From: Cytophagales bacterium
Lineage (GTDB): Bacteria > Bacteroidota > Bacteroidia > Cytophagales > Spirosomataceae
DNA: 64,000 bases
Direction of reading: 5' to 3'
Assembly: GCA_024742395.1 (NCBI GenBank)
Contig: JANSYO010000005.1
Location: forward strand, 1-64,000
A program made the translations under genes and the position numbers. This document shows, piece after piece, positions 6,777 through 64,000 of this stretch; the stretch's first letter is position 1, and each line of letters opens with the position of its first letter. The notes beneath the pieces were generated by a model that made no database searches, was not told the DNA's origin, and was given only the letters and a program-made list of their open reading frames with translations.

Positions 6777-6822
6777 TCAATAAGTAGAGTTTTTTTACTA
6801 TTTCAACGTCTTATTTGAACGT

Positions 6823-8369: not shown

Positions 8370-8391
8370 AGTGGCAAGATAACCAATTTGA

Positions 8392-8999: not shown

Positions 9000-10859
9000 A
9001 TGAGCCTGAAAAACATACTCTTAGCCATATTCTGTTTTGCATTTAGCATTCATTCTAAAGCACAATTGTATGGTAAAGAGGATAGCCTTTTAACTGCATA
9101 TAAAAAAGGTAAAGCAGATACGAATCAGGTGAAAACAATTAATCATTTGGTGAATGTTTTTCTCTACAGTGAACCAGAAAAGGCAAAAGAATTTATTAAG
9201 GAAGGCTTGATACTCAGTAATAAACTTAATTATCAAAAAGGCCAGAACATGTTCCTTTACCAAAAAGGAGCCTATTACACAAATTTGCCAAATTATGACT
9301 CCGCGGTTATCGCATATAATCAAGCTCTTAAATATGCTAGATTAATCAAGGATCAACGAGCTGTGGTACGTGCTATGAATGGTAAAGCCGTGGTGAAAAT
9401 AGAATCGGGGCATTACGATGAAGCCATTCAGCTTTTAAATGAAACGATTCCATTTATTCATGAGACAGAAGATACCTTGACTCTGGCCGTTACTTACAGC
9501 CACCTGGCTAACTCATACAAAGCCAAAGGATACACTAAAGTAGCTTTGGAGTATATCCAAAGAAGCATTAAGGAACTGAAAACTTTAGATGCAGAGATGA
9601 GACTGGCAGATGCTTATTATTTAATGGGAGATCTGGAAGTAGACTTAAACCACTATGAAGATGCTTTTGCGAACTATGAAAAAGCGGCAGTAATTTACAG
9701 AAAACAAAAGGACTATTATTTCCTGACCGAACTTCTATACTCATTATCGTGGCTTTCTGTTAAGAAGGAAGACTGGATTAAGGCAGATAAAATGCTAGAT
9801 AGTACCCGAGTACATGCAAATTCTCACGGCTTGGATTATATCCTGGGAAAGGTAGCCAACCTCAATGCCCAGGTACAATTAGCCAAAGGCAATTATCAAG
9901 AAGCAGAAAGGTTTGTTAATCAAACACTTAAAGAAGCAAGACGACAGGGAGACAAGTTAGAAGAGGCCAATGCCTTAAGTTTAAAAGGAAAGCTTCTCAA
10001 TAAAATGGGAAGAGCCGCACAGGCCATCCCGCTACATAATGAAAGCCTAAAATATTTTGAGGAAAATAATGTACTCGGCGGACTGATATTCGTATACGAA
10101 AATCGCAGCGAAAGCTATAAGAATATGGGCAAGTACAACCTGGCACTTAATGACATAGAAGCCTATAAATTGTGGAGTGACAGCTCCGCAAACATCGCCA
10201 AAACCAAGCAGATAGAAGAACTCAGAATCATTTTCGATACGGAACAAAAAGAAGCTGAAATAGAAAACTTGGCTTTGGAGGTTGATAAATCAAATCTTCA
10301 AAAATCTCTTTTTGCAGGAGGCATGTTTTCAGCTATTTGTATCGCGGGTCTTCTATATTTTGGTTACAGACAAAGAAGCAAAAGAACAAAAGCGGAGTTT
10401 GAACAAAAAGAAGCATTAGTAAAGTCAGAACTGGCGTTTAAAAGGAAGGAATTGGTCACGCAAACTTTGCATTTAGTAAACAAGAATGCACTTATAGAAG
10501 ATCTAAAAAACGACCTTAAAGAAATAAGAAAAACCTCTGAAACACACACAAAGGAAATAGGAAAAATCATTAAAGACCTACAACAAGAAAATGCCTCAGA
10601 TGCCAACTGGGAAGTTTTTAAAAGTCATTTTGCTGCAGTACACAATGATTTTGATATAAAACTCAGAAGTAAAGCCCCTGATATTACAGATAATGAAATA
10701 AGACTTGCTGCTTTCATTAAGATGAAATTGAGTACCAAAGAAATAGCTGGCATGTTAAACGTTCAGCCTGAGAGCGTTACCAAATCGAAATACCGACTGA
10801 AAAAGAAATTTAACCTGGACGCAGACGAAGATTTTGATGTCTTTCTGGATCAAATTTGA
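9000..10859 (+). CDS. TPR membrane sensor with C-terminal LuxR-like HTH
   Basis: ATG 9000 starts a clear signal sequence (SLKNILLAIFCFAFSIHS); an upstream in-frame TTG at 8979 is less likely. TPR-like helical repeats fill about residues 30-400, a single membrane helix sits near residue 440 (LFAGGMFSAICIAGLLYFGY), then a coiled coil and a C-terminal winged/LuxR-like HTH (EIRLAAFIKMKLSTKEIAGM). This topology, with a periplasmic TPR sensor and a cytosolic HTH, is a Bacteroidota regulator type. Its C-terminal 140 residues closely match the protein at 13,323-14,714, so the two are paralogues with different sensor halves. Confidence 0.88.
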   Translation: MSLKNILLAIFCFAFSIHSKAQLYGKEDSLLTAYKKGKADTNQVKTINHLVNVFLYSEPEKAKEFIKEGLILSNKLNYQKGQNMFLYQKGAYYTNLPNYDSAVIAYNQALKYARLIKDQRAVVRAMNGKAVVKIESGHYDEAIQLLNETIPFIHETEDTLTLAVTYSHLANSYKAKGYTKVALEYIQRSIKELKTLDAEMRLADAYYLMGDLEVDLNHYEDAFANYEKAAVIYRKQKDYYFLTELLYSLSWLSVKKEDWIKADKMLDSTRVHANSHGLDYILGKVANLNAQVQLAKGNYQEAERFVNQTLKEARRQGDKLEEANALSLKGKLLNKMGRAAQAIPLHNESLKYFEENNVLGGLIFVYENRSESYKNMGKYNLALNDIEAYKLWSDSSANIAKTKQIEELRIIFDTEQKEAEIENLALEVDKSNLQKSLFAGGMFSAICIAGLLYFGYRQRSKRTKAEFEQKEALVKSELAFKRKELVTQTLHLVNKNALIEDLKNDLKEIRKTSETHTKEIGKIIKDLQQENASDANWEVFKSHFAAVHNDFDIKLRSKAPDITDNEIRLAAFIKMKLSTKEIAGMLNVQPESVTKSKYRLKKKFNLDADEDFDVFLDQI

Positions 10860-10890
10860 ATTACTCAAAGCCAACAGAACTTTGGGATAT

Positions 10891-10923
10891 AAAAAAGGTG
10901 ACCTAAATCAGGTCACCTTTTTT
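10891..10923. terminator. Bidirectional terminator between sensor gene and katG
   Basis: A 14-bp perfect stem (10891-10904 with 10910-10923) with a 5-nt loop has A6 on the left and T6 on the right. It therefore works as an intrinsic terminator for both convergent genes. Confidence 0.88.
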
Positions 10924-10944
10924 AAATTGTAAGATTTTAAACAA

Positions 10945-13197
<2,253 letters not shown>

Positions 13198-44454: not shown

Positions 44455-46329
44455 TTAACCATCTATTCTAGACAAGATAAACTCAAAAAGAGGTCTAAAT
44501 ACTTCGAAATGTACTGGATCAAGATTAGGTACAACGTTTTTAGCAAAGTTTACTTTTTCACCTGTAAACTTTATGAAACCATCTGTACGGCTAGTATCAA
44601 CACGGTAATATTCATTTAATCCTGGGACATTGTAGAATAAAAATTCAATTGGCATTAATGAGTTTTTTCCATAAGTGCCTCCATGAGGGTTAATTACTTG
44701 TCTCGAAATATTTTCTATGTTTGGTACTGGCAGCAGTAAACTATAACCTTCTTTATTATCAATTTTTTTTGTTAAACATTTTGTCGGGTCATCCTGTACA
44801 GTATTGCCTAATTGACTCCAATCCAAATATGCTTCATCGAAATCAAAAAGGGCAAAGAATATTCTGTTTGGGTATGCATCAAAAAGGTTACCTCTTTTTA
44901 TAAGATTCCTTAAAAAGCTGCAATCAAAAGCATTTTGGATTTCGAATTTTCTTTGATCTTCAGGAAAGAGTTTTTTCCAAGCCTCCTCAAGAATAATCTC
45001 ATCAGAAATTCCTTCTGTAAATAATATAGCACCACTCGTCGAATTTATAAAGTGCATTATATTTAATCGTGCCTCGCTCTCCGTTAATACAATTTTGCCT
45101 CCTGAGAGAGTCTCAATAGCTCTTGCTTTTGATATTTTTTGATTAGTTATTGAAGAATTGTTTAGTGAAAATAAGTTTATCCAAGGATTATTTTCCAATG
45201 GAGCTAATGTGACAGCACTATGGCTTGTCATTAATACATGATTATCAACGGTATCCATCTGATCCGTAATTTCAAAGACTTGTTTTAGGAAATCAAATTG
45301 CCATTCAGGATGTAGAAAAGAGTCAGGTTCGTCTAGAAGTGAAATGCAGTTACGACCTTTGAAAATCTCTATAATTGCGTATATATAAACTGACTGGAAT
45401 TGGCCATCACTAAATTGGTTAATCCCTAAGGTAACTCCTGAATGAAGTACTACTTCTATTGAAATTTCTTCTAACATTTCAATAGTTTTTAGGTTATCAA
45501 AGCCTTGAAACAACTCTTGAATACTCAGATTGGAAAATTTCTCTTGGAAATCCGATACGTCTAAATAGAGAATATACTTATCATCATATGGATTATCATT
45601 TCCCGAAAGATATCCTTGAGCTCTAACTCCTCTAGTCGGTTCTAATAGATCAATAGTATCAAGTTTATTTAGAAACTCACGAGTGATTCCTTGAGACTTC
45701 CAATACTTTGTTTCTTCAACCACAGGGTCAATCTCATACCCTGATCTTTTTGCAAAGTAAGGTCTTTTTAGGGTTATTTTTAATTCATTACCTACTGACC
45801 TTATTCCCAGTTTTTCAAGAATAAATCTCCTAGCTTTACAATCTTCAGATTGAAGAATTAAAATGGATAAAAGCAATGATTTATATTCATCTCCAATTCC
45901 TATAAATTTCCTTGTTTCACCTGAATTAGCTTCCCTAAGTGACCTCTTAAATTTGCTTAGGTAGTTGTTAATTAGTGAAGCAATTTGTGGATTATGTCCT
46001 GAGTAATAAATTAGAATGTTATCGGGAAGGAGGGACATTCTAGGCTTTGAAGCCTCATTTCCCGTTTCGTTCAGGAAGACTTCTCTCTCCCAGTTCCATT
46101 GAACCCTAACCTCTACATTGTCTTTTTCATAATTCAAAGTATAATTGAACCGGGTCAAATAATCATCTTCATATAACTGTCTAAAGATTTCAATAATGGC
46201 TTCAAATAAGTTGGATTTACCGGTGCCGTTCTTACCAACGAAAACATCAATAAAACTCTCTGTATCAAAATCAATAGTGAGATTTCTGAGATTTTTATAT
46301 CGGGCTATGTGTAAATTTTTAATTCTCAT
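44455..46329 (-). CDS. AAA ATPase with TOPRIM-like C-terminus (OLD/RloA-like)
   Basis: A 624-residue SMC/ABC-type ATPase. Walker A is GKNGTGKSN at residues 32-40, Walker B is SLLDEPDSFLHPEW (near residue 330), and a switch-like TSHSAVTLAPL follows. The C-terminal part carries LFTEGISDEII and ALFDFDEAYLD, the Glu and DxD pattern of a TOPRIM fold, as in OLD-family nucleases. It starts 8 bp after hsdS, so it is the fifth gene of the hsd operon, like the R-linked orf (rlo) genes found inside type I loci. Antiphage nuclease activity is inferred from family. Confidence 0.85.
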   Translation of the reverse strand: MRIKNLHIARYKNLRNLTIDFDTESFIDVFVGKNGTGKSNLFEAIIEIFRQLYEDDYLTRFNYTLNYEKDNVEVRVQWNWEREVFLNETGNEASKPRMSLLPDNILIYYSGHNPQIASLINNYLSKFKRSLREANSGETRKFIGIGDEYKSLLLSILILQSEDCKARRFILEKLGIRSVGNELKITLKRPYFAKRSGYEIDPVVEETKYWKSQGITREFLNKLDTIDLLEPTRGVRAQGYLSGNDNPYDDKYILYLDVSDFQEKFSNLSIQELFQGFDNLKTIEMLEEISIEVVLHSGVTLGINQFSDGQFQSVYIYAIIEIFKGRNCISLLDEPDSFLHPEWQFDFLKQVFEITDQMDTVDNHVLMTSHSAVTLAPLENNPWINLFSLNNSSITNQKISKARAIETLSGGKIVLTESEARLNIMHFINSTSGAILFTEGISDEIILEEAWKKLFPEDQRKFEIQNAFDCSFLRNLIKRGNLFDAYPNRIFFALFDFDEAYLDWSQLGNTVQDDPTKCLTKKIDNKEGYSLLLPVPNIENISRQVINPHGGTYGKNSLMPIEFLFYNVPGLNEYYRVDTSRTDGFIKFTGEKVNFAKNVVPNLDPVHFEVFRPLFEFILSRIDG

Positions 46330-47972: not shown

Positions 47973-49409
47973 TTAGCTGAGGGCTTCGGTCAGTACGTTG
48001 ATAATTTTTTCCTGTATGCTACTCACCTTATCTGTGGAGGCATTGTATTTTTTGAGAATAATATCTGGTGAGTCTAAATCATCATTTTCCTGATGTGGGT
48101 TTTTGATGTCCAGATTATATCCCTTGTCTTTTATTTCTTTGGCATCTACTTTCCAGGCATATTTGGCAAAGTCCTCATCCTCACGATTTGTCCACCAAGC
48201 CTTCTCTAAATCAAACTCTTTGATGTCAATCGGTTTGCCTTTGTTATAGCTTTTGACTCCTTCAGGGTACGGGTGTTCAAAATACCAGACTTCTTTCGTT
48301 GGTTTTCCTTTATCGAAAAACAGCACGTTCGTTTTTATGCCGGTGTAGGGGTTAAATACACCATTTGGTAAGCGAATGATGGTATGTAGATTACATCGCT
48401 CCATCAATTCTTCCTTGATTCTGGTTTTTACACCTTCCCCAAATAGGGTTCCATCTGGTAATACCACCGCACAGCGGCCATTATCCTTTAACAAACGAAT
48501 GATCAAGGCCAGAAAAAGATCTGCTGTTTCTTTTGTTCTAAACTTTTGAGGAAAATTGGTCTCGGTACCGTCTTCTTCCACACCTCCAAAAGGTGGGTTA
48601 GTCAAAATGACATCCACCTTATCGCCAGAACCCCAATCGCTATACGGTTTTGAAAGAAGGTTGTCTCTTCGTACAGCAGGTACATCAAAACCATGCAACA
48701 TCAGATTGGTAGTACACAAAAGGTGAGGTAACGGCTTTTTCTCTATTCCAGTAATGGAGTTTTGAAATTTCTCCCTCTCTTCAGGCGTGTTTACCTGTTT
48801 TCTGATGTGATCTATGGTACAAGTCAAAAAGCCACCCGTTCCGCAGGCTGGATCAAGCACTTTTTCGCCCAATTGTGGATTGACCATATCCACCATAAAT
48901 TGGGTAACAGCTCTTGGCGTATAGTATTCACCGGAAGAACCGGCAGATTGCAGCTCCTTTAAGATGGATTCATAGATATCATTAAAAAGGTGGCGGTCTT
49001 TGCTACTGTTAAAGTCAATCTTATTGATCTCATTAATTACCTGACGAAACAGCGTTCCGTTTTTCATGTAATTATAGGTGTCTTCAAAAACCGATCGTAT
49101 GATTTTAGCCTGAGGGCTACTACTTATATCCAGATCTTTCAGGGTAGGGAAGAGCTCGGTATCTATGAACTCCATTAACTCTTCTCCAGTCAAACCTTCT
49201 TCATCGGCAGCCCATTTTTGCCATTTAAGTTTATCAGGAATCGGGCTTTTATAATTTTCAATGGTCAGTTCCCATTCCTCTTCTTTATCGGCAAAGATTT
49301 TCATGAAAATCATCCATACCATCTGCGAGATACGCTGTGCGTCACCATCAACTCCGGTATCTTTCCGCATAATGTCTCTTATGCCTTTTATGTTTGTTGT
49401 TATACTCAT
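47973..49409 (-). CDS. hsdM: Type I restriction-modification DNA methyltransferase
   Basis: An N6-adenine methyltransferase of 478 residues. The helical HsdM N-terminal domain is followed by motif I DPACGTGGF at residues 186-194 and motif IV NPPF at 271-274, which bind S-adenosylmethionine and the target base. It is the methylating part of a type I complex with HsdS and HsdR. The start overlaps the HNH gene stop by 1 nt (TAATG), and hsdS follows directly. Confidence 0.96.
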   Translation of the reverse strand: MSITTNIKGIRDIMRKDTGVDGDAQRISQMVWMIFMKIFADKEEEWELTIENYKSPIPDKLKWQKWAADEEGLTGEELMEFIDTELFPTLKDLDISSSPQAKIIRSVFEDTYNYMKNGTLFRQVINEINKIDFNSSKDRHLFNDIYESILKELQSAGSSGEYYTPRAVTQFMVDMVNPQLGEKVLDPACGTGGFLTCTIDHIRKQVNTPEEREKFQNSITGIEKKPLPHLLCTTNLMLHGFDVPAVRRDNLLSKPYSDWGSGDKVDVILTNPPFGGVEEDGTETNFPQKFRTKETADLFLALIIRLLKDNGRCAVVLPDGTLFGEGVKTRIKEELMERCNLHTIIRLPNGVFNPYTGIKTNVLFFDKGKPTKEVWYFEHPYPEGVKSYNKGKPIDIKEFDLEKAWWTNREDEDFAKYAWKVDAKEIKDKGYNLDIKNPHQENDDLDSPDIILKKYNASTDKVSSIQEKIINVLTEALS

Positions 49410-50260
49410 TAAGCTTGTTTTCTTCCTTTTATTAAATCTTGTAAGTCCTGAACTGAGAGATATTCTCCATCTATATCTCTCCTATGAAGCATCCGATGGC
49501 AATTGGAACAGACCAAAGCCAAATCATCTAGATTATTTATTCTTGCACCTTGACTTATTGGTATTTTGTGGTGACACTCAATAAACCCTTCGCCCAAATC
49601 TCCGTACTGCTTGACGAAATCAAATGAGCAGCACTCACAAAACATCCGATTAGCTTCTGTTGCCTGACTTTTTTTGGTCTTTACAAGCTTGCTGACTCTT
49701 TCTCGAAGGATGTGTTTTTGATAAACAATTTTTTCAATACCTTCCAGAGCCTCAATGTCAATTGGGCCCAGATTCTGATTAAGAATTTCTTCTTCAAGAA
49801 TTTGAACGTTTTCTTTAAACATCCCTTGAAAACTATTCCATACATTAGTTTGTATGTCAGGAAGAGTTCCATTTGGATCAAGCAAGCTTATTTCATAAGA
49901 GCCACCTCGATTTGGTCTTAAAAAGTCCAGTGAATTTGGTTTAGGGTTATAAGCATTTGGGGCTCTTGCAACAACCCTCACTTTTCTTTCCCATTTATAC
50001 CGAATCAGATTTCCAATTTTCACATGGTAGTCAACAGGGGTTACCAGATGGGTTAGTTGAACACTTCCCGTAATATTCGTTTTTTGAAATAATAGAATTA
50101 GGTCTCCTATTTCTGGTTTTAGGGCTTCTTTTTCATCTATATATCTGCTTGACCAGTTAAGCCAAAATTCATCTTCGTCTTCAGGGGCATAATAGGCGAT
50201 GGCATTTCCATCGTCTTTTTTGATATTCTTGACCCACAAAATGTCCTCTGAACTATACAT
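49409..50260 (-). CDS. HNH endonuclease embedded in the hsd operon
   Basis: The C-terminal HNH module is complete: CECC, GFIECHHKIPIS and LALVCSNCHRMLH (residues about 209-262) give the zinc cysteines and catalytic His. The N-terminal 100 residues (ILWVKNIKKDDGNAIAYYAP, GDLILLFQ, GSVQLTHLVTP) look like a PUA/EVE-type beta fold, which in known type IV nucleases reads modified bases. That fold is inferred, not certain. It overlaps hsdR before it and hsdM after it by TAATG junctions. Confidence 0.85.
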   Translation of the reverse strand: MYSSEDILWVKNIKKDDGNAIAYYAPEDEDEFWLNWSSRYIDEKEALKPEIGDLILLFQKTNITGSVQLTHLVTPVDYHVKIGNLIRYKWERKVRVVARAPNAYNPKPNSLDFLRPNRGGSYEISLLDPNGTLPDIQTNVWNSFQGMFKENVQILEEEILNQNLGPIDIEALEGIEKIVYQKHILRERVSKLVKTKKSQATEANRMFCECCSFDFVKQYGDLGEGFIECHHKIPISQGARINNLDDLALVCSNCHRMLHRRDIDGEYLSVQDLQDLIKGRKQA

Positions 50261-52620: not shown

Positions 52621-52946
52621 GGGCTAAAAGGCTACAGAAATCAGAATTTCATTTTGGTGGTTGAATTTTGGTAAAAATAATACTAAAGTGATCGTGAAGC
52701 CACAGAAATACTAAAAATAGAGCGGGTAATAATTTTGAGAAGAAGAAATACGGGGTTTTTCCCATAAAGAAACCCTCAGTTGATTGTTAGTTTTGAATGA
52801 ATCCCAAAATTTACAAAGTCGTGAATTAATGACGACGGTAAACTTTTTTTGTATTCACTTTTGATTTAACGGATATCTTCCTCAAAATGAACGAAGTATA
52901 TTTGATTGGTAAAACCGTTTTGCCCAGTAAAACATTCTTTAATACT
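52621..52946. other. Divergent intergenic region between hsdR and beta-helix gene
   Basis: This AT-rich gap of 326 bp must hold the promoters for the minus-strand hsd operon and the plus-strand beta-helix gene. CACTTTTG at 52857-52864 differs from the -7 consensus in one base and could serve the latter. I see no further gene, tRNA or strong hairpin. Confidence 0.4.
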
Positions 52947-54683
52947 ATGAAAGTCTTCTTAACTTTAGTTCCCGTTTTAATACCGATTCTGGCTGTGACA
53001 CAAAATACGTTTTACGTGTCACCTTCAGGTAATGATGATCATGATGGTTTAATCCCGTCCCCTTGGAAAACTTTTCAAAAAGCGTGTGACAATGTTTCAC
53101 CGGGTGACACGGTCTTTTTCAGAGGTGGTACATACAGAGAAATTGGAATAAACTGTTCGGAAAGTGGAACTGTCATATCACCAATAGTCTATACGAATTA
53201 CGCTGAAGAAGTACCTGTTTTTTCGGGTAGCACATTTAATGTGATTAGAAGTGGCTTTCTCCAAATAACCGCAAATAATGTTATCGTCTCCGGACTTAAA
53301 TTTCAAGAATTCACTGGAAGAGAAAATTTCGGAATTAAAGTTACTGATGTGTCACACAACGTGACACTTTCAAATTTAAAACTCAGCAACCTTTATTTTT
53401 CAAATATTCCCAATGAAAGGCCTGACTCATCCTATCAAACCATGAATCCAATTCTGGTTTTTGGCTCTTCTATATCTAATCCCATAAGTCAGATCACAAT
53501 CGACAATTGCGAAGTATCAAATTGCCGAACAGGTCAAAGCGAAGCAATTGCAATAGTTGGAAATGTTGAGAATTACACCGTGTCACATAACACAATTAGT
53601 AGCACAGGCAATATCGGTATAGTAGCTGCTGGTTATTATAAATGGAACATAAATGGTTTAGAATTAATACAGACCAGAAATGGGTTAATCAAAGGCAATA
53701 TCGTAGATGGATGCAAAGGTCTAAAAGCCTTAGCCGCCGGAATTTATATTGATGGGGCTAAGGAAGTGATTGTTGAAGGAAATATATGCAAAAATGGTCA
53801 AAGAGGATTTGCCGTTAATTGTGAAAACCATACCAATGTATCTGGTGCCACCGCCTCAAATAATATCCTCCGTAGTAATCTTGCTTACAATAATTCACGA
53901 GGCGGTATTAGCATTGGCTCATGTCGTGGAGGTGACACGTGCAAATATGCAATTGTACAAAGCACATGGGTAATTAATAATACCACATATAATAATTTTG
54001 ACAATTCTGTCTTAGAGCTTACTGAAACAATGCCAATAGATTTTGGGGAATTAATATTAGATGCATCGGAAAACACACAAATTCGAAACAATATATTTTC
54101 TTCCACAATTTCTGGTAGATGGAATCTCCAAATAAGCAATCAAAAAACTCCTCAATTTGTCAATAATTTAGATTCAGACTATAATATATGGCAATTCGCA
54201 GAACCAAATTGGCCGGTTTTTCAGCTAAATAATTACATCGTTAATGGTCTTTCTGCCTATCAAAACTCCTCTGGACAAGAGCAAAACTCACTTTTTCAGA
54301 ACATTAACTTTAAAAACCCTTCAACAGGCGACTTTAGATTGATTAATGAGTATTCACCTGCGTTTGATTTTGGAGACACTCAAAGCACAACAATCTCTTT
54401 TGCTGGTGTCACAGATTTATCAGGAAAAGCAAGAATGAAGCACCTAAAACTTGATGCCGGTGCATACGAATATACGTGTGTCAAATCAGATATTAGTATT
54501 AACACCCCTTTACCGTATGACATTTACCACTTTGAAACAGTTGGTTCTATAAATTTCAACACCCTCGTGACACAAAACCAACGTGTCACACTAGTTGCCA
54601 AGAAAGCAATCAATCTTCAATCAGGTGCATTAACAAATTTAGGTTCTGTGTTCAAATTGGAAATTGGCGGGTGCGTAGAGTAG
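52947..54683 (+). CDS. Secreted right-handed beta-helix protein with 3-coathanger domain
   Basis: ATG 52947 gives a signal peptide (MKVFLTLVPVLIPILAVTQ); an upstream ATG at 52887 would bury it. TFYVSPSGNDDHDGLIPSPW and GDTVFFRGGTY are the usual opening of DUF1565/PbH1-type beta-helix proteins, and repeated N-asparagine ladders follow to about residue 450. The last 70 residues match the 3-coathanger stack domain found in Bacteroidota surface proteins. It probably binds or cleaves a polysaccharide, and no lyase site is evident. It is cargo between two defence loci. Confidence 0.82.
   Translation: MKVFLTLVPVLIPILAVTQNTFYVSPSGNDDHDGLIPSPWKTFQKACDNVSPGDTVFFRGGTYREIGINCSESGTVISPIVYTNYAEEVPVFSGSTFNVIRSGFLQITANNVIVSGLKFQEFTGRENFGIKVTDVSHNVTLSNLKLSNLYFSNIPNERPDSSYQTMNPILVFGSSISNPISQITIDNCEVSNCRTGQSEAIAIVGNVENYTVSHNTISSTGNIGIVAAGYYKWNINGLELIQTRNGLIKGNIVDGCKGLKALAAGIYIDGAKEVIVEGNICKNGQRGFAVNCENHTNVSGATASNNILRSNLAYNNSRGGISIGSCRGGDTCKYAIVQSTWVINNTTYNNFDNSVLELTETMPIDFGELILDASENTQIRNNIFSSTISGRWNLQISNQKTPQFVNNLDSDYNIWQFAEPNWPVFQLNNYIVNGLSAYQNSSGQEQNSLFQNINFKNPSTGDFRLINEYSPAFDFGDTQSTTISFAGVTDLSGKARMKHLKLDAGAYEYTCVKSDISINTPLPYDIYHFETVGSINFNTLVTQNQRVTLVAKKAINLQSGALTNLGSVFKLEIGGCVE
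52995..54589 (+). repeat. Ten copies of the heptamer GTGACAC/GTGTCAC
   Basis: Copies start at 52995, 53016, 53104, 53349, 53361, 53580, 53932, 54406, 54567 and 54583, five in each orientation, all in the beta-helix gene. Several encode Val-Thr or Val-Ser pairs. Two appear as close inverted pairs (53349/53361 and 54567/54583). Confidence 0.8.
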
Positions 54684-54920: not shown

Positions 54921-55397
54921 ATGTGGCATTTAATTCCCGCAGCTATAATTGGTCATCTAATTCTCACAAGGGATGAAGACTCAGGATTCTATGAAAAAAT
55001 AGAACTGGACTACCGACGTATTTATGTCTGTCACTCTTTTTACGACTCACGTTCTTACAAACAATTAATTAAGAAACTCAAACTATCTGAAGATTTTAAA
55101 ATTTGGAACCATTCGATTCCGGAGCACAAACAGCGGAAGGTGAAAAATGATGAGGAATTGAGAGCTATTTTCAGAAGGCAAATGGCAGGATGTACGTATG
55201 TATTTGTTTATGCGAATAGCAATCTTCCCCAAAAATCGTACGTAAAAATGGAGCTTGAAGTAGCACAAGAGTTGGGAAAGACTATTTATGCGGTAAGACC
55301 AAAGGGAACATACTACATTCCTCAATTCATTAAGAAATTTGACCCTGAATATATCTGGAATGATATCAGGACTTTACAGAAAACTTTGGGGAGATGA
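54921..55397 (+). CDS. ThsB-like TIR-fold protein (DUF1863/MTH538 type)
   Basis: A 158-residue protein. After a hydrophobic N-terminus (WHLIPAAIIGHLIL) comes a TIR-like core: RRIYVCHSFYDSRSYKQLIK as strand A and box 1, then IWNHSIPEH, CTYVFVYANSNLPQKSYVKM and ELEVAQELGKTIYAVRP. The pattern matches the DUF1863 TIR-like group, which includes the Thoeris ThsB sensors that make NAD-derived signals. The candidate catalytic Glu lies in VKMELEVA. No ThsA (SIR2-SLOG) gene is present. Its stop overlaps the start of the Roco-TIR gene by 4 bp. Confidence 0.8.
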   Translation: MWHLIPAAIIGHLILTRDEDSGFYEKIELDYRRIYVCHSFYDSRSYKQLIKKLKLSEDFKIWNHSIPEHKQRKVKNDEELRAIFRRQMAGCTYVFVYANSNLPQKSYVKMELEVAQELGKTIYAVRPKGTYYIPQFIKKFDPEYIWNDIRTLQKTLGR

Positions 55398-58300
55398 GTA
55401 GAATAGAAGAGGCGAAAAGGAGAATTAGGAAGTGTCTTGAAAATTTAGACCCATATTTAGATTTGAGAGCATCAATGATCGGTGATGTAGGTTTTGAGAT
55501 TCCTGAATTAATGGAATGTGTGCATTTGGAAAGAATGAATTTGTCGTGCAACTATATTTCTGATATTTCTTTCCTAAGAAGATTTAAAAATTTAAATGTA
55601 CTTAATCTCTCTGAAAATAGTATTTCAAACATTTCAACATTACGCGAGCTAAACTCTTTAGAACACTTAGATCTAAGCTCCAATAAAATTGGTGAAATAA
55701 CGGAATTGGGCGAATTGCAAAAATTGAAGTCACTCATAATTGGAGGAAAAAATTTAGAGGATATTTCTATAATAAATGAATTGCAAAATTTAGAATCATT
55801 GGAATTGTATGGGATTAGCGGTTCCTCAACCTATCAAGGTCTCACAGGAATCCAGAATTTGAATTCTTTATCTTTATCTGGCTTCGGTCCCGAATATGTA
55901 GACAGAAATTGGCTTTCTGGATTTCCCTATTTGAGAAACTTAGGCTTACACTTTGGACTTTGTGATATTTCTTTTGTTGCCAATTTGAAACATCTAAAAA
56001 ATTTGTGGCTGGATGATAATCGTCTTGAGGATATTTCTGAAATATCTGAATTAAAAAGTCTAATATCACTGGATTTGACTGGGAATTTTATTGAAGATAT
56101 AGATAGCCTAGCCAAATTAAGTGAGTTGACATCTCTTAAAATGGGGGGGAATCGTGTTAAGTCCCTTTCTTCAATTACTAAACTAGATAAGCTGCTCACT
56201 TTAGACTTGAGATCAAATGCAATTAATAATATTTCGGAATTGGGTCACTTGAGAAATTTGAGATCATTGAACATAAGTCGTAATAAGATTGATGACATTT
56301 CAGTTTTGGCTAATTTGACAAATTTGATTTCAATTGATTTGTCTGAAAATAATATTGGGGATATCTCAGCTGTAGCCGACCTAGTTGATCTGAAAAACTT
56401 GAATGCACAATCATTAAAACTTAATGATATATCGGCTCTATATCGTTTGGAAAATATTGAAAAATTGTCAGTTGGTGGAAATAGCTTGCAGGACATATCT
56501 GTTTTATCCAAGATGGGAAAGTTAAAATATATTAATTTGACCAATAATAAAATTTCAGATTTTAGTCCGTTGTTAAAAAATGAAAATTATAAGAATGGAG
56601 ATTTTGAAAATCTTTTTTTTGATTTTAATCCAATATCTTTTGAGCTCCAAGAAGCATTAAAAGGTGGATATCAAGTATTAAATACCTTTTATGAAAATTT
56701 GTACGCAGAGGGAAGCATACTAAATGACCACCTAAAAGTCGTTGTTCTCGGTAACAGCACTGCAGGGAAAACATCTTTGCTAAACTACCTTGGTAAAAAA
56801 GAATTCGACCAAGAGGAGGTAACTACCCACGGCATTTCCCGGGTCATGGATTTCGAGTTCGACGGCATAAAGCACGTTAACTTCTGGGATTTTGGCGGGC
56901 AGGATTATTATCATGCTACGCACCGTCTTTTTATCACGACAAATAGCATTGGTATCATTGTTTGTCATCAGGACTTGGAAGACCGAAAAGTAGAGGAAGA
57001 AACCATTGAATATGTAGAAGTCAGTGAAGGAGGAGAAAATAAAAAGATTGGTGTTCCTGTATGCATTAAACATTATCCATATTCCTATTGGTTAAAATCC
57101 TTCGCTCATCTTACCAAAGCGGATACAATTGAGGATAACCAGTATAACAAACGATTTTATTCGAAAGTCTTTTTGGTAGAGAATAAGTGTGCAGCCAGAG
57201 TTTCAAATGTTGATATGAAGCTTTCAGGTGAAGTCATGAAGAAAACACCTTTTGAAGTTGTCAATAATAATTTTTTCCAACTGGACATTCGGGAAGCCTA
57301 TCATTACGAAAAAGGCAGAGATACCAATGAGCAAGCTGAAGACTTCCATTTTGCTTTCAGAAAATTTGAAAGAAGATTAAAAGAAGAACTGCAAAAAAGC
57401 TTTTCAGACAATAACTTTAAGGTTATTGCGAATTATCCCGTCATTCGTGATATCATCGCCAGTTTGGCAGAATCCATGAAGGATGGGGTTGGCGAAGAGA
57501 GTTTATCTAATCTGTTAGCAGAATTGAATATCCCTATTGAGTTTGCATATGAGAAACTCCCCGTTTGGATTACTTATGAAGAGTATAAGGGTATCATCCG
57601 GCAAAACAGCAAACTATTCAATGAATCTACGTACCGTTTTGTTACCACATACCTCAGAGATTTTTGCGGGCGTATCTTATATTTTGAAGATATCGAGAGC
57701 TTAAAGGACATTGTATTTATTGACCCTCAGTGGTTACACACTCGCATTTACCTGTTTTTAAACAAAGATTTTGTTAAGGAACGGCAAGTCAATTGGCGGG
57801 GAGAAACGCTCACCTTGAAACAAGGCGAGTTTATTTTAGAAGAAGTAGATAAGAAATTTGAGGGAGATTATCTGGATGCTTTGCAATTACTGGATTTGAT
57901 GAAGGCTTTTGAGCTAGCTTTTGAGATACCTGAACAAAATCCAAGACGATTTATTGCTCCACAGTATTTGCCTGGAAAGCCTCCTATATCGGATGCCCAA
58001 TTGAATAAATTAAAATACTCCTACCATGATTTGGCCTTGACTCTGGAGTTTGGGCAATATTTGCCACCATCTCTCATTTCCCGGATTATCTCACAAAAGG
58101 GCCATTTGATAAAGGAAAACGATGAACCACTTTGGCGAAACGGTTTGGTATATGAGGAAAATGGACAAAGCACTTTTGTTTTATGTATTCCTGATGAAAA
58201 CAAAATTGAGGTTTATCTCAAGTCAAAATATGATAATACTAGGAATATTTTGCTTCGTGATTTTATGGTATTCATGGAGGAGAAATATAAGGAAGAGTTG

Positions 58301-58999
58301 GAAGAAATGTATGTAAGGCTTCCTAATGAACAAGGGAAGGTTAAATGGAAAGATTTACTTATTGCAAAAAGGGAAGGGGGAAATAAAGCAAAAAATTTTG
58401 ACAAATCATTTGATAGAGAATTGGTTGATTCCAAGCCTTTTGAGTTTTTGTTCGAGAAGTTTGAGAGGGAGCCGGTTAGAATATTCTTATGTTATTCCAC
58501 AGGGGACAATCGAGAAAAGTATACTTTGTTTAAGAAGCTAAAGCCCGCTTTGGAGGCTTTTGGGAAGAATGAAAATGTTAAAATAGAACTTTTTCATGAC
58601 AAAGAAATGCCAACAGGCTCAGATTGGCTCCAAACTATAAGAGAGAACATCCGAAGTAATGATATCCTCATTTGTCTATTATCTAATGACTTTTTCAACT
58701 CAAACTTCATAGACATGGAAGAACATGGTAATGTTTTAAGAGATATTTTGGCCGAAAAAAGGAATAGCCTAATAGCACCAATTTATCTAAAAGACTGCCA
58801 AATAAAAGAAGGAAAACATATAGCCAATTTTAATATATGGAAACCTGACCCAAGTGAATATGGACTAAGTGTTAGCTCAGCTAACTTTAGCTTTAGCAAC
58901 TTAATCGGCCATGCAAATGATAGTTATATTGATAATTACGTGAATGGGTTTGTGAGTAGTATTTCGGGAGAGATTTTAAAAGCTGCTAGGCTTAAATAA
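55394..58999 (+). CDS. LRR-Roc-COR-TIR protein
   Basis: A 1201-residue multidomain protein. About 16 leucine-rich repeats of roughly 22 residues (DISxLxxLxNLxxLxLxxNxI) fill residues 40-400. A Roc GTPase follows with P-loop GNSTAGKTS at 453-461 and G3 DFGGQ at 499-503; then a COR domain (FIDPQWLHTRIYLFLNKDF) and a C-terminal TIR domain from about 1029 (RIFLCYSTGDN) with LSNDFFNSNFIDMEE, where Glu1109 or 1110 may be the NADase residue. LRR sensing, GTPase switching and TIR output resemble NLR-like immune proteins. ATGA overlap couples it to the ThsB-like gene. Confidence 0.88.
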   Translation: MSRIEEAKRRIRKCLENLDPYLDLRASMIGDVGFEIPELMECVHLERMNLSCNYISDISFLRRFKNLNVLNLSENSISNISTLRELNSLEHLDLSSNKIGEITELGELQKLKSLIIGGKNLEDISIINELQNLESLELYGISGSSTYQGLTGIQNLNSLSLSGFGPEYVDRNWLSGFPYLRNLGLHFGLCDISFVANLKHLKNLWLDDNRLEDISEISELKSLISLDLTGNFIEDIDSLAKLSELTSLKMGGNRVKSLSSITKLDKLLTLDLRSNAINNISELGHLRNLRSLNISRNKIDDISVLANLTNLISIDLSENNIGDISAVADLVDLKNLNAQSLKLNDISALYRLENIEKLSVGGNSLQDISVLSKMGKLKYINLTNNKISDFSPLLKNENYKNGDFENLFFDFNPISFELQEALKGGYQVLNTFYENLYAEGSILNDHLKVVVLGNSTAGKTSLLNYLGKKEFDQEEVTTHGISRVMDFEFDGIKHVNFWDFGGQDYYHATHRLFITTNSIGIIVCHQDLEDRKVEEETIEYVEVSEGGENKKIGVPVCIKHYPYSYWLKSFAHLTKADTIEDNQYNKRFYSKVFLVENKCAARVSNVDMKLSGEVMKKTPFEVVNNNFFQLDIREAYHYEKGRDTNEQAEDFHFAFRKFERRLKEELQKSFSDNNFKVIANYPVIRDIIASLAESMKDGVGEESLSNLLAELNIPIEFAYEKLPVWITYEEYKGIIRQNSKLFNESTYRFVTTYLRDFCGRILYFEDIESLKDIVFIDPQWLHTRIYLFLNKDFVKERQVNWRGETLTLKQGEFILEEVDKKFEGDYLDALQLLDLMKAFELAFEIPEQNPRRFIAPQYLPGKPPISDAQLNKLKYSYHDLALTLEFGQYLPPSLISRIISQKGHLIKENDEPLWRNGLVYEENGQSTFVLCIPDENKIEVYLKSKYDNTRNILLRDFMVFMEEKYKEELEEMYVRLPNEQGKVKWKDLLIAKREGGNKAKNFDKSFDRELVDSKPFEFLFEKFEREPVRIFLCYSTGDNREKYTLFKKLKPALEAFGKNENVKIELFHDKEMPTGSDWLQTIRENIRSNDILICLLSNDFFNSNFIDMEEHGNVLRDILAEKRNSLIAPIYLKDCQIKEGKHIANFNIWKPDPSEYGLSVSSANFSFSNLIGHANDSYIDNYVNGFVSSISGEILKAARLK

Positions 59000-59042
59000 A
59001 GTAATTTGGGAAGTAATTAAAGCTATCGCACGAACACAGAGT

Positions 59043-62000
59043 ATGGAATCCTTAAAAACAGAACCAAAATTCTCTCAAAGAATCAAAGAAGTTATTTCAC
59101 TTTCAAGGGAAGAAGCACTTCGTCTTGGCCATGATTATATAGGTACTGAGCATTTCATACTTGGGATGATTAGTGAAGGTAATGGAATGGGATTAGAATT
59201 AATCCGCAAAACAGGCATTAAAACTATTGAATTAAAGCAGAGGATAGAGTCTGTAATTCGTTCCAAAGGTGCGAATTACATCAATAACCTATCGAACTTA
59301 CCTTTAACAAGGCAATCTGAAAAGGTATTAAAAATCTCACATTTGGAAGCAAAGATATTCCATTCAACGATTATTGATACCGAGCATTTATTACTAGCTA
59401 TTTTAAGAGATACTGATAATTTGGGTTGCCAAATCCTAAATAGATTTAAATTGAATTATAATCTAATTAAGGAAATTCTTGAGATTCATTTAATAGGAGA
59501 AACTAATAATATAGAAAATGTTGATACAACAGAAGCAACATGGAATGAGAAGATACTAAGACTTAGTCAAGTAGCTAGGAAGTTAAATGTTAGTATTAAT
59601 ACTATAACTGAACATCTCGCAAAAGAAGGAATAAAAATTAGTACTAACCCTAATTCAAAAATTAGATCCTATAATTTACTTTTATTACAGGAAATGTTTA
59701 ACACTAACTCGCTTATTGGTGAAGTAAAGGTTAAATATAGTGAAGTTGTCGAGGAAAATAAGCTAAGTTTAAATCATGAGGTTGCTAACAGAATTAATAA
59801 GTCTTTGGAAGATAAAAGTCTTACGACGCTGGATCTCAGTTATTTAGAATTACGTCGTATTCCAAAAGAATTAAAAAATATAACACACATTAAGAAAATA
59901 AAGCTTAATGGAAATAATTTAACGAACATTGAAAATATTCCGGATGGCGTTGAAGAAATTGATTTAAGTAATAATTCAATTTCTAAAATTGAAGAACTTC
60001 CTAATTCAATTTTACATCTAAATTTAAATTCGAATAAAATTCTTCAAATAGGAGATTTACCAATAAGTCTACGTAAACTAAATGTAAATGATAATCAAAT
60101 AGAAAGGCTTGTTATAACTAAAGGTTTAAAAACATTAAGCATTTGTAATAACGCCGTTAAATCTATTTCCAACAAACAAAAATATTTTGAACTTACCGAA
60201 TTATATCTTTTTGGTAATCCAGTCGAAAATTTACACCCAAGCACATTAGGTGAAAATGAGAAAACTAATTGTTTAAGTTTGGTCAAAAACTTTTTTGTTG
60301 AATTAAGAAGAAAAAAAGAGATCAATCGAAATGTAAAACTGGTATTGATAGGGAATAGTAATGTAGGTAAAAGCAGTATCCTGAATGCTTTAAAAGATCT
60401 TCCCTGTGATGAAAACATAAAATCAACACATGCAATTGCCTTAGATTCCTTTAAATATTCTCATAAAGATTTTCCAGTACATTTTAGTGTATGGGATCTA
60501 GGTGGGCAAGAAATTTACTATGGCACTCATCGGATATTCATGACTTCTACAGCTATTCAATTGCTGGTATATGATGAGATTACTGAATGTATTTCGGTAT
60601 CACCAGATCGTATTGTTGAAGGTGAATTGGTTAGGCACATAAACCTTCCATTTTACCTGAGTCGAATTAGAGAACTTAGTCCGGATAGTGAAGTAATTAT
60701 AGTACGGAATAAAATTGAAGTGCCTTCTAATCCTATAAACTACAGCGACGTTTTCTATAATTATCGTCCTTTTCCAATAAGTGTTTTTTTATCGAAGGGC
60801 ATAGAAACTTTGAAAACTGAAATTTGGGAAAAAGCTAAGTCTCTAGAATTATATGGGATGGAAGTTCCTTTCTATTGGGAAAAAATCCGAAAAATAATTC
60901 TTGAACATAATGGCGAAAATGCTTTGTCTGGTAAGTTAATCACCATTGAATTATTTACAAAATTATGCTTAGAGGAAGGTGTTCTAGAAGAAGGAGTAAA
61001 AGATCTAATTGTTTACCTACATAATACAGGGGCCATTTATTATAAAAAAGAACTGGGTGAATATATTATCCTGGATATTATTTGGGCTCTAAATGCCATA
61101 TATAAAATACTAGACAGAGAAAGTAATTTCTATAAAGAAATGCGATCGCTATCATATGGCAAATGTAATGTAAGAACAGTTTTCGAAGACTTAGATACAA
61201 CTAATCAAAAATACTCTATTGAAGAAAAATGGCTATTTCTTAATTTTATGAGAAGTAGTGGTATGTGCTTTCCTTTTAAAATTAAAGAAAATGAAGAAGA
61301 TAACTTAGATACCCAATTTGTATTTCCGGAATTTTTACCGAGGGATAAACCCGATGTAGTGGATCTATGGGAAATGAAAAAAGGGAAGAAGTGTATTTGG
61401 GTCAAAAAATTTAACTTTTTACCCTATTACCCATTGCACGGGTTTATAAACTCTTTTGGCTCAAAAACGCCCTTTAATTTTATTTGGCGTAATGGAATTT
61501 TAATTCTTTTTGAAAGAAAAGATTATACTGGCTTTCTCATTGAGGCTGATTTCGATAATAATAAGCTGATACTAACAATTGATGAAACAGTGTCTGAATG
61601 GTTTGATGCTATTACTGATGCAATAATAGTACATGGAGATAATGATGAAGCAGAATGGGAATTAATACATGGTTCTAAGATTCCAATAAAAGAAAAAAAG
61701 GAAGTAAGTGATTTAGATAAATTAAAGGATATTGAACAAAAAAATATCTTCGAAGCTATTGAGAAAAAAAGAGCAGGAAAATTGGTGATATCATATGCTA
61801 AAGAAGATTTGGATCAACTAAAGCTAATTGTAGAATATTTGGAAGCACAAGGTATTGACTATTGGTATGATGAAAATCTTTCTAATCGTGAAGATTGGAC
61901 ATTAGAAATTGAAAAGGAGTTTAAAGAAGCTGGAGGTTTTCTCATATTGCTAAGCCATCATTACATGCTACCAAAGAAAAAGTTTATTCATGAAAACGAA

Positions 62001-62207
62001 GTGCCAATTATTCTGGATGGATTCAAAGAAAAAAAATTTGCCACGATCTTAAAAGTTGGGGCTTTCGACCTAAATGAAGACGCACCAATTTCATGTATTA
62101 ATATGTATTCTAAAGGTGAGGTTATGCCTGATTTAATGAAGGACGAAAGCCAATGCAAACATTATATAAATAGGTTTGTAAGTGATGGTATAATGAAAAA
62201 GTTCTAG
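59043..62207 (+). CDS. Clp_N-IF2N-LRR-Roc-COR-TIR chimera
   Basis: A 1054-residue protein with an unusual N-terminus. Residues about 5-150 are a two-repeat Clp_N domain (REEALRLGHDYIGTEHFILG) very like ClpC. Residues about 165-215 (RLSQVARKLNVSINTITEHL, then TNPNSKI) match the N-terminal domain of Bacteroidota IF-2. A short LRR block follows (235-390), a Roc GTPase with GNSNVGKS at 437-444 and DLGGQ at 485-489, a COR domain, and a TIR domain from about 913 (LVISYAKEDLD) with Glu984 or Glu986 near the catalytic place. It starts 43 bp after the previous gene. Confidence 0.88.
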   Translation: MESLKTEPKFSQRIKEVISLSREEALRLGHDYIGTEHFILGMISEGNGMGLELIRKTGIKTIELKQRIESVIRSKGANYINNLSNLPLTRQSEKVLKISHLEAKIFHSTIIDTEHLLLAILRDTDNLGCQILNRFKLNYNLIKEILEIHLIGETNNIENVDTTEATWNEKILRLSQVARKLNVSINTITEHLAKEGIKISTNPNSKIRSYNLLLLQEMFNTNSLIGEVKVKYSEVVEENKLSLNHEVANRINKSLEDKSLTTLDLSYLELRRIPKELKNITHIKKIKLNGNNLTNIENIPDGVEEIDLSNNSISKIEELPNSILHLNLNSNKILQIGDLPISLRKLNVNDNQIERLVITKGLKTLSICNNAVKSISNKQKYFELTELYLFGNPVENLHPSTLGENEKTNCLSLVKNFFVELRRKKEINRNVKLVLIGNSNVGKSSILNALKDLPCDENIKSTHAIALDSFKYSHKDFPVHFSVWDLGGQEIYYGTHRIFMTSTAIQLLVYDEITECISVSPDRIVEGELVRHINLPFYLSRIRELSPDSEVIIVRNKIEVPSNPINYSDVFYNYRPFPISVFLSKGIETLKTEIWEKAKSLELYGMEVPFYWEKIRKIILEHNGENALSGKLITIELFTKLCLEEGVLEEGVKDLIVYLHNTGAIYYKKELGEYIILDIIWALNAIYKILDRESNFYKEMRSLSYGKCNVRTVFEDLDTTNQKYSIEEKWLFLNFMRSSGMCFPFKIKENEEDNLDTQFVFPEFLPRDKPDVVDLWEMKKGKKCIWVKKFNFLPYYPLHGFINSFGSKTPFNFIWRNGILILFERKDYTGFLIEADFDNNKLILTIDETVSEWFDAITDAIIVHGDNDEAEWELIHGSKIPIKEKKEVSDLDKLKDIEQKNIFEAIEKKRAGKLVISYAKEDLDQLKLIVEYLEAQGIDYWYDENLSNREDWTLEIEKEFKEAGGFLILLSHHYMLPKKKFIHENEVPIILDGFKEKKFATILKVGAFDLNEDAPISCINMYSKGEVMPDLMKDESQCKHYINRFVSDGIMKKF

Positions 62208-62215
62208 ATTAAGTG

Positions 62216-62407
62216 ATGAATTCTTTTAAAAATGAAGTTTTCATTTTCTCAAAAGTGAAGATTGCTCATGTGGTAAAGGAAGTTTATGACTTCTTAACAG
62301 ATAAATGATTGAAGGTTTTTGATTCGGAGTATACGCTATCAGAACGTTCTAAACTATCTGATTTTATAGGAAGGCTACAAGAAGAACCGTATTTTTTCCT
62401 AAGTTAG
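62216..62407 (+). pseudogene. Gene remnant interrupted by TGA
   Basis: In the 397-bp gap after the chimera, ATG 62216 opens 30 codons (KVKIAHVVKEVYDFLTDK), hits TGA 62306-62308, and stays in frame for 32 more codons (VFDSEYTLSERSKLSDFIG) to TAG 62407. The amino-acid quality on both sides suggests one broken small gene. I recognise no family. The rest of the gap to 62,604 shows nothing that I can support. Confidence 0.4.
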
Positions 62408-62604
62408 AAAAAAGGTTCTATATTCATCTGATGAAATAATATACTTGACAAATTGGTATAAGTATGAATGCATTGTTAATGAATTTAATTTAAAAAATGA
62501 AAATTCCACCAAGGATTGCCGAGATGTTTAGGGGGAATTTTCTGTCATTTAGATTTACTTTTCATTTTTAATTTGATTCTTCAAATTCTTTATTAACAGT
62601 TCAA

Positions 62605-63654
62605 ATGGGATTTCTAAGCGATTTAAATGAAGGCTTAAAATCTTTTGGTAAAGGTTTTAGAAGTGTAATAACCTTCGGAGCTTCTGATAGACTTGAAGAA
62701 GCTAAAAATATCTACAATCTGCGAAACAGAGAACTAGAAAATGTTCAGAAAGATTTTCTTAGAGAAAGAGAAAGAACAATGGAAGTTCTTGGTGATGAAG
62801 CACATAATAAAGTTGTTTCAGTAGAACTTTTAAAAGAAATTAGAGAACGATTTAAGGCATTGAAATCTGAAAATAGTTTTATATATAAAATTAGATTGAT
62901 TGATTATGGTATTATCAGACTTAAGCCTTCAACTATCTTCAAAAACGTATTCAAAAGTGTTGCCTTATCATCTGAGCTTTTTATAGATATAAGTAGTGAT
63001 CTTGCGACTATAAATGGTCTGTATCACAAATCATTTGCATCTAAACATGTTGTTTCCAAACATTATGCTTCAAACCATGCAAGTGTTTTGGCAAAAACAA
63101 AATCGACCACATATTTAAGTTCAAAACCATTTGTGGCCAAGGCAACTGGTGTTAAGCTATTAGGTGGTAAAGCAGTAACAACAGCAGTATTAACTAAATC
63201 AACTATGGCAGGAACTACTATGGTTGCGAGCAAAGGTATATTGACAGGGGTTTTAGGTACATTTGCTTTACCCTTTGTAATTATAGGAGGAGCATTATTT
63301 GAAAATCTGAATGTTAGGAGTAAAATTGAAAACATCCAAAAAGAAGTATTTAAACTAAATAATGAAATTGATGTCTTGAATAAAAAAATAATTAAATGCA
63401 TCAAAATTCAGAATAGTTCACAGGAAAGGTTAGCAAATGTAATCGAGGTCCAAAAAAATATTGAAACTTCTGTTTTCATTTTAGAGCAAGAAATAGTAGA
63501 AATTTTTGGAAGCTTCAAATTAGTGAAAAGAATATGGGCTAAATTTTGTCTATTCTTTGGCCTTCCTAATAAAGACCTTACGAAAATTAGAGGGGCAAAA
63601 GTTAGAACTAAGCAACAAATAAATCAGTTAATAAGGCTTGTAAAACAAAACTAG
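62605..63654 (+). CDS. Hypothetical protein with central glycine-rich hydrophobic segment
   Basis: A 349-residue protein. Charged helical N-terminus (to about residue 100), a Ser/His/Lys-rich middle (KHVVSKHYASNHASVL), then about 60 residues of Gly, Ala, Thr, Val (GVKLLGGKAVTTAVLTKSTM, GILTGVLGTFALPFVIIGGA) that could insert in membranes, then coiled coil. This layout recalls pore-forming or bacteriocin-like proteins, but I recognise no family. It lies 2 bp before the next gene, so they form a pair, and may be the effector or partner of the Roco-TIR genes. Confidence 0.7.
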   Translation: MGFLSDLNEGLKSFGKGFRSVITFGASDRLEEAKNIYNLRNRELENVQKDFLRERERTMEVLGDEAHNKVVSVELLKEIRERFKALKSENSFIYKIRLIDYGIIRLKPSTIFKNVFKSVALSSELFIDISSDLATINGLYHKSFASKHVVSKHYASNHASVLAKTKSTTYLSSKPFVAKATGVKLLGGKAVTTAVLTKSTMAGTTMVASKGILTGVLGTFALPFVIIGGALFENLNVRSKIENIQKEVFKLNNEIDVLNKKIIKCIKIQNSSQERLANVIEVQKNIETSVFILEQEIVEIFGSFKLVKRIWAKFCLFFGLPNKDLTKIRGAKVRTKQQINQLIRLVKQN

Positions 63655-63656
63655 AA

Positions 63657-64000
63657 ATGAGCAATTCTTTGCGAAAATATGAGAATTCAGATAACAACAT
63701 TCAACTAGTCGATGCTGTTAAGAGTTTATTCACTACTGCAGGAAATATTTCAGAAAAGTTTGAAATTCTTAAAATAGAAACGAATAAACTCATGTTGGAA
63801 TCACAAAGAATTCAAAGTGAATCAGAAAGAATTCAGAAAGATTTTGATTTGGAAATGTCCAAAGAGAATAACATGCATACCGAGATAATGCATCTTTTGG
63901 AGGAAAGAACCTTAAATATCAACAAAGCGATTGCAAGCGGAGATTTAAAAATCTTAGAATTGGTAGTTGATCTTTATAAATCACTCGATAATATAAGGGG
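63657..64000 (+). CDS. Coiled-coil protein, cut by window edge
   Basis: ATG 63657 opens a frame that is still open at the window edge (114 complete codons). The product begins MSNSLRKYENSDNN, continues with a long heptad-like charged region (ESQRIQSESERIQKDFDLEM) and has no membrane segment so far. It is placed 2 bp after the glycine-rich protein gene, so translation is probably linked. No function can be given from the visible part. Confidence 0.65.
   Translation, partial: MSNSLRKYENSDNNIQLVDAVKSLFTTAGNISEKFEILKIETNKLMLESQRIQSESERIQKDFDLEMSKENNMHTEIMHLLEERTLNINKAIASGDLKILELVVDLYKSLDNIR

Follow-up and report, generated by a model that had tools for sequence, protein, structure and literature searches.

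A hallmark of plant nucleotide-binding leucine-rich repeat receptors (NLRs) is the integrated decoy, and those with integrated domains (NLR-IDs) include RGA5, Pik and RRS1. Roc-COR proteins are GTP switches, and TIRs act once they are brought together. In bacteria, the NLR-related protein bNACHT25 reportedly requires DnaJ, senses phage via DnaJ and is proposed to be the guard of a host process (PMC12169576), whilst CapRel senses phage via Gp0.4-FtsZ (PMC13423816). In Bacillus, adaptors dock on the ClpC N-domain, and phage SPO1 Gp53 binds ClpC in large part through that domain (PMC6873191); mycobacterial ClpC2, a partial homologue of ClpC1, can be a sponge for a ClpC1-directed toxin (PMC10030653). 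ClpN repeats are found in rare vWA proteins of MoxR-vWA FtsH ternary conflict systems, and a decoy role has been proposed for inactive enzyme copies (PMC7159879). Monomerisation of a bacterial LRRK2 homologue is reported to be driven by GTP (PMC11052575), and a role of initiation factor IF2 in phage Mu transposition has been reported (PMC3334882). Here we describe gene 3, found in positions 1 to 64,000 of contig JANSYO010000005.1 (assembly GCA_024742395.1, a Cytophagales bacterium of the Spirosomataceae); this whole stretch of 64,000 nucleotides is hereafter the window. Gene 3 carries a ClpC N-domain and an IF-2 N-terminal domain ahead of leucine-rich repeats (LRR), Roc, COR and TIR, and we tentatively favour reading it as a Roco-TIR immune receptor (Roco denoting Roc followed by COR) with two integrated host decoys that would sense phage attack on ClpC or IF-2.

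An earlier note on this DNA, made from the sequence alone, had assigned LRR, Roc, COR and a C-terminal TIR to gene 3 and to the preceding gene 2, and had overlooked two host-type N-domains that stand ahead of this core in gene 3. The assignments themselves are borne out: both proteins contain LRR_4, then Roc followed by COR-A, and a C-terminal TIR_2, all above Pfam cut-offs and with P-loops present. Gene 3 and its parts are given below, with E-values from hidden Markov models (HMMs) where these were built.

59043 to 62207, plus strand: gene 3, the central feature, ClpC-N / IF-2-N / LRR / Roc / COR-A / TIR, 1054 residues
59058 to 59534, plus strand: grafted ClpC N-domain, gene 3 residues 6-164 (HMM built without gene 3, 4.5e-77)
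59544 to 59747, plus strand: grafted IF-2 N-terminal domain, gene 3 residues 168-235 (HMM built without gene 3, 1.4e-23)
59763 to 60317, plus strand: LRR region of gene 3, about residues 241-425 (Pfam LRR_4, and alignment with G078 and G345)
60336 to 61304, plus strand: Roc (residues 432-558) and COR-A (residues 612-754) of gene 3 (Pfam, and a COR-A search of the own genome)
61785 to 62204, plus strand: C-terminal TIR of gene 3 (Pfam TIR_2, residues 915-992)

The protein opens on a pair of Clp_N repeats (84.5 bits in Pfam) that belong to a ClpC N-domain, and no AAA family was found in gene 3 after Clp_N, which sets it apart from the ClpC/Hsp100 class. Nor was NACHT or NB-ARC found in genes 2 and 3 by Pfam at E 0.05, so that neither falls into the STAND/NACHT class. 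The ClpC match ends where an acidic linker begins and the IF-2 match starts within the first few residues of IF-2; in our reading both grafts were probably cut near natural domain ends. The P-loop of gene 3 is GNSNVGKS at residue 437. The closest Roco-TIRs, those of genomes G078 (33%) and G345 (35%) from the same family, align with gene 3 through to the C-terminus and open directly with the LRR, with no domains ahead of it. Glu 986 is the same in all three aligned proteins. A PDB sequence search with the C-terminal 155 residues of gene 3 found nothing at E 0.1. A single-sequence AlphaFold2 model of the N-terminus reached a mean predicted local distance difference test score (pLDDT) of 39.3 and was set aside.

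A domain may be called integrated where it comes from the host lineage and where relatives of the receptor are without it. With regard to the relatives, none of the 133 Roc-bearing frames matched the HMM of either graft (134 loci, 1235 frames read stop to stop). These frames amount to 120 distinct genes; 13 frames begin at the edge of a locus and 109 genes have a frame with an uncut N-terminus, whilst two loci (L046 and L196) had no Roc signature in the stop-to-stop test. In a first graft test, with 108 proteins, L046 was absent and five proteins (L121, L154, L162, L178 and L179) had been clipped past Roc by the choice of first Met. No second fusion was seen among the matches listed, either for the whole of gene 3 against 149 relatives or for its first 386 residues against 395 genomes of the phylum. 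A scan of genome contigs covered the best 80 of 425 relatives. No relative of gene 3 was found in viral contigs. In plasmids 95 records matched, none covering more than 80% of the query, and the 30 plasmid matches listed fall on the Roc-COR part (23-28% identity), on the ClpC N-domain part or, in one match, on an LRR stretch. Among the top-ranked papers of a library without subscription journals, judged for the most part by title and start of abstract, there was no integrated decoy from bacteria and no Roco protein fused to ClpC-N or IF-2-N. What is new is a double host graft on a known class, the Roco-TIRs; by the literature searched it would be a first for bacteria if the decoy role holds.

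With regard to host lineage, the ClpC copy is 74% identical to the ClpC of its own genome, 75% to that of G022 and 59-72% to 19 other aligned ClpCs. In a maximum-likelihood tree of 22 N-domains (gene 3 and 21 ClpCs, with loci L022, L023 and L024 left out) the copy falls with the ClpCs of its own genus and of G022, which belongs to another genus of the family (support 97/91). Within this group it is placed beside G022 (95/86), a placement less sure than that with the own-genus and G022 ClpCs as a whole because p-AU is 0.121 for a ClpC group that excludes the gene 3 copy (approximately unbiased, AU, test). The branch of the copy is 0.4 long, whereas those of the clade's four ClpCs measure 0-0.03; we read this as capture of a ClpC N-domain followed by fast change. 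Many ClpC matches extended to query residue 268; we take the stretch past about 165 to be a chance extension, since the matching frames are mostly of ClpC length.

The ClpC copy is still under amino acid constraint, looser than that on ClpC itself. Compared with its own clpC it differs at 23, 12 and 63% of first, second and third codon positions, respectively (154 codons). Between the copy and G022 pN is 0.137 and pS 0.79, whilst pN between G022 and the own ClpC is 0.065; almost every pair is saturated at synonymous sites, and hence no dN/dS value is given. Of the 87 columns that are invariant in the 21 ClpCs, 71 are unchanged in the copy. Among the 16 that changed, one is an uninformative start Met, six lie at residues 67-76 between the two repeats, and R39S and G107D lie inside the repeats. 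The Glu of both (G/D)TEH motifs is preserved.

The IF-2 copy is 45% identical to the product of its own infB, which in our reading of that locus follows rimP and nusA. At E 0.01 the segment is matched in 145 of 149 genomes (the own genome among them), for the most part in single long frames of IF-2 length; the HMM for this domain was built without gene 3 and without loci L080, L091, L096, L097 and L099. One of these, L099 of genome G138, encodes on the plus strand (1498-2268) a 256-residue protein with two tandem IF-2 N-type domains that leaves no space for the GTPase of IF-2; elsewhere in the order, then, this N-domain also serves outside IF-2.

Gene 3 is the third of five successive plus-strand open reading frames, whose positions agree with those in the earlier note, as does the spacing it reported (an overlap of 4 bp between genes 1 and 2 and 2 bp between genes 4 and 5). 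Genes 2 and 3 are 43 bp apart, and genes 3 and 4 are 397 bp apart. The other four are as follows.

54921 to 55397, plus strand: gene 1, a stand-alone ThsB_TIR-type protein, 158 residues
55394 to 58999, plus strand: gene 2, LRR-Roc-COR-TIR, 1201 residues, TIR_2 at residues 1030-1144 (Pfam)
62605 to 63654, plus strand: gene 4, 349 residues, without a family match, its tie to the system uncertain (397-bp gap)
63657 to 64000, plus strand: gene 5, ending at contig base 64010, 117 residues in full, 2 bp after gene 4

The TIR or TIR-like content claimed for three of these genes was found again, as ThsB_TIR in gene 1 and TIR_2 in genes 2 and 3, all above cut-off. Gene 1 scores 31.7 bits against a cut-off of 21.2 (PF08937, 2.2e-07) and matches the PADLOC ThsB model at 1.6e-07; its Glu 111 sits where we take the catalytic Glu of a TIR usually to be. 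Gene 2 has the P-loop GNSTAGKT at residue 453 and a Glu 1110 that was located by motif. Genes 1-3 each combine a TIR domain with a Glu that is presumably catalytic (Glu 111, Glu 1110 and Glu 986), which places them among the TIR effectors. Genes 2-5 yielded no effector of the ThsA type, the other genes of the window not having all been scanned, so that gene 1 is at most a candidate component of Thoeris. Gene 4 had been called membrane-active, which nothing here upholds: it has no Pfam, PADLOC or NCBIfam match above cut-off and no membrane prediction was made. Its only occurrence in 149 genomes is its own, with no relatives in the other 148, in plasmids or in viral contigs, and its single-sequence AlphaFold2 model (pLDDT 42.0) was unusable and was set aside. 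The part of gene 5 inside the window matched no Pfam family above cut-off. GC content at third codon positions (GC3) is 0.36 in gene 1, 0.33 in gene 2, 0.16-0.28 by segment in gene 3 and 0.20 in gene 4. Because genes 1 and 2 overlap and differ in GC3 from gene 3, we see two modules here, genes 1-2 on the one hand and gene 3 on the other, which given the 43-bp gap may be co-transcribed, and leave genes 4-5 aside. There were fewer promoter-like sites than in shuffles (29 vs 38.2) and about as many terminator-like sites (5 vs 4.0).

The adjoining type I restriction locus of the earlier note is present as an R, M and S set upstream on the minus strand. An HNH endonuclease gene lies between R and M (49409-50260, minus strand). 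Directly after the S gene is an AAA_15 ATPase (44455-46329, minus strand) whose best PADLOC match is PtuA (3.7e-67), possibly a further defence gene. Downstream of the window, in locus L028 (contig 60001-80000), are two minus-strand TIR-Sel1 genes (4023-5357 and 8253-9509), that is, a TIR-like domain followed by Sel1-type repeats, recognised in the first by Pfam and in the second from reading its translation. Counting both, there are at least five TIR genes in about 15 kb, and we read the surroundings as a defence island. That the cassette lies inside an integrative element, as had been stated, is not borne out by the one conjugation-like match seen, which scored 19.1 bits against a cut-off of 40, and no element was mapped. 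A GCX_COOH domain, which we take to be typical of Bacteroidota, was found at 52887-54683 (27.5 bits, cut-off 26).

LRR-Roc-COR-TIR alone is widespread and not in itself new. A TIR was present in 33 of 94 Roco frames from 93 loci, Cyanobacteria, Bacteroidota, Verrucomicrobia and Acidobacteria being among the lineages; the ThsB and TIR HMMs used here had been built with proteins of the window and with some of the loci later found, two for ThsB and four for TIR and Roco. In the own order, Roco proteins like gene 3 occur in 34 of 390 genomes at 1e-20 and those like gene 2 in 5 of 390; in the phylum the figure is 8 of 355 at 1e-15 (own genome included in each count). Extra domains on Roco-TIRs are varied: L106 encodes a 1429-residue Roco-TIR (3622-7908, plus strand) with an EAD11 domain in a long interval between LRR and Roc, and a Roco-TIR of L114 has an N-terminal AAA_35 ATPase. 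In locus L030 of G078 a 146-residue protein with hydrophobic stretches, as judged by reading, lies on the minus strand (10745-11185) 10 bp upstream of the closest Roco-TIR relative. It has only a sub-threshold Pfam match and is possibly a membrane partner of that Roco-TIR. Of 93 loci scanned, 3 have a ThsB-like gene close to a Roco-TIR gene (two of the 3 were in the HMM training): in L101 less than 0.5 kb away on the same strand, in L189 0.8 kb away on the opposite strand with one gene between, and in L187 4.7 kb away. This proximity hints at an association of the two. The ThsB HMM also matched an 822-residue frame in L157 and two Roco frames, which were not counted as ThsB genes. Recurrence of the five-gene order, which the earlier note had put forward as a check, was not found by BLAST in six related loci (L030 and L187-L191), two of them weak tests (L188, a contig of 5.4 kb, and L190, a stretch of 8 kb); genes 4 and 5 were unmatched there and gene 1 was matched in one locus only, at 25%.

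How might such a protein work? We infer for gene 3 an immune role, sensing by decoy and consumption of NAD. Its N-terminus would display the ClpC N-domain and the IF-2 N-domain as bait; a phage protein directed against ClpC or IF-2, or one hijacking either, would bind the copy. Binding of the bait would shift the LRR/Roc-COR switch, through GTP loading and an altered oligomeric state, and the C-terminal TIRs, once brought together, would cleave NAD or produce an NAD-derived signal, by which infection would be stopped. Genes 1 and 2, because of their differing composition and their 4-bp overlap, would be a second TIR module beside gene 3. Of the NLR-like logic proposed earlier, the Roc-COR switch and the TIR output fit the domains, whilst sensing by the LRR leaves out of account both grafts, which are the better sensor candidates; most simply, the sensor of gene 3 is the grafted pair. 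Several observations argue for the decoy reading, namely that two unrelated host N-domains, both probably cut near domain ends, stand in tandem before a complete LRR-Roc-COR-TIR, that the closest Roco-TIRs are without grafts, the lineage of the ClpC copy and its amino acid constraint, a setting with a restriction set, a PtuA-like gene and TIR-Sel1 genes, and the precedents of SPO1 Gp53 with ClpC, the ClpC2 sponge and sensing through DnaJ and FtsZ. Other observations weigh against it. This is one gene in one genome, and no other of the 120 distinct Roco genes shares the fusion. A ClpC group without the gene 3 copy survives the AU test, and the fast change of that copy could be relaxed constraint. 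The IF-2 copy, clear in its family but short and on a very long branch, could not be placed by a tree. Lastly, no phage binder of the IF-2 N-domain was found among the top-ranked literature, in which one paper reports a role of IF2 in Mu transposition (PMC3334882), and because of this the IF-2 half of the decoy reading is the weaker half.

An alternative that we regard as somewhat unlikely is that the grafts are working interaction modules and not bait. The receptor would then watch over proteostasis or translation itself, or proteolysis would keep it silent. On this view the partners of ClpC-N would be host ClpC-pathway clients or adaptors, and IF-2-N would dock on the initiation machinery. 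The Glu retained in both TEH motifs, which we take to be the residue that contacts phospho-arginine in Bacillus ClpC, would suit such a role; however, the GTEH of the second repeat has become DTEH and R39 has become Ser, both at positions invariant in the 21 ClpCs. A search for arginine kinase (PF00217) gave no match, but its controls were silent too and it carries no weight. The need of bNACHT25 for DnaJ, with its proposed role as a process guard (PMC12169576), and the ClpN repeats of rare vWA-MoxR conflict proteins (PMC7159879) are also consistent with working modules.

That the LRR is the sensor and the grafts are passengers, with genes 1-5 forming one Thoeris-like system whose TIR signals act on the gene 4 product, we consider improbable. 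The 4-bp overlap of genes 1 and 2, the 43 bp between genes 2 and 3 and the ThsB-like genes near Roco-TIR genes in L101, L189 and L187 are in its favour. However, none of the six related loci compared, of which two are short, showed the gene set, gene 4 stands 397 bp off and is without relatives in the other genomes, plasmids and viral contigs, and the GC3 of genes 1 and 2 is unlike that of gene 3. Moreover, passengers would be expected to decay, yet the ClpC copy is constrained. The same constraint speaks against a fusion that is accidental or misassembled and functionless, which is the least probable of these explanations and very unlikely. The assembly is a draft (440 contigs, 3.84% contamination) and the fusion occurs once, but a single open frame spans both junctions within a contig of 121,769 bp, and the five segments of gene 3 are all AT-rich (GC 0.26-0.32). 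The copies are 74% and 45% identical to the host genes, and gene 3 is therefore not a join of those.

Should the favoured reading of gene 3 as a receptor with integrated decoys be true, bacteria, like plants, would have evolved built-in baits, a case of convergent evolution of immune logic. Phages of Bacteroidota would encode factors directed at ClpC and IF-2, and both proteins would be phage targets. Moreover, there would be a route from sequence alone to guard and decoy receptors, as immune receptors with domains nested in host gene trees. It is possible, though doubtful as yet, that gene 3 is the first bacterial receptor with integrated decoys, its baits set for phage attack on proteolysis and translation.

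Compared with known systems, gene 3 shares its core with other bacterial Roco-TIRs (G078, G345, L101 and others), in which neither graft was found. Thoeris (ThsA/ThsB) is similar in that gene 1 matches ThsB_TIR, but no ThsA was seen among genes 2-5 and the neighbours are Roco-TIRs. The ClpN-vWA proteins likewise place ClpN in a predicted conflict protein, whereas the part of that report available describes no LRR-Roc-COR-TIR and no IF-2 domain with it (PMC7159879). ClpC2 differs from gene 3 in regulating its own promoter and in binding a small molecule, and no immune effector is described for it in the available part of its report (PMC10030653). bNACHT25 and CapRel also sense phage via a host housekeeping protein, but there the host protein is separate whilst in gene 3 it is built in. 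Plant NLR-IDs are alike in combining an LRR receptor and its nucleotide switch with a domain copied from the host, to which gene 3 also adds a TIR. In contrast to them gene 3 is bacterial, its switch is a Roc-COR GTPase and not NB-ARC, its TIR is C-terminal, and its N-terminus carries a tandem of two different host domains.

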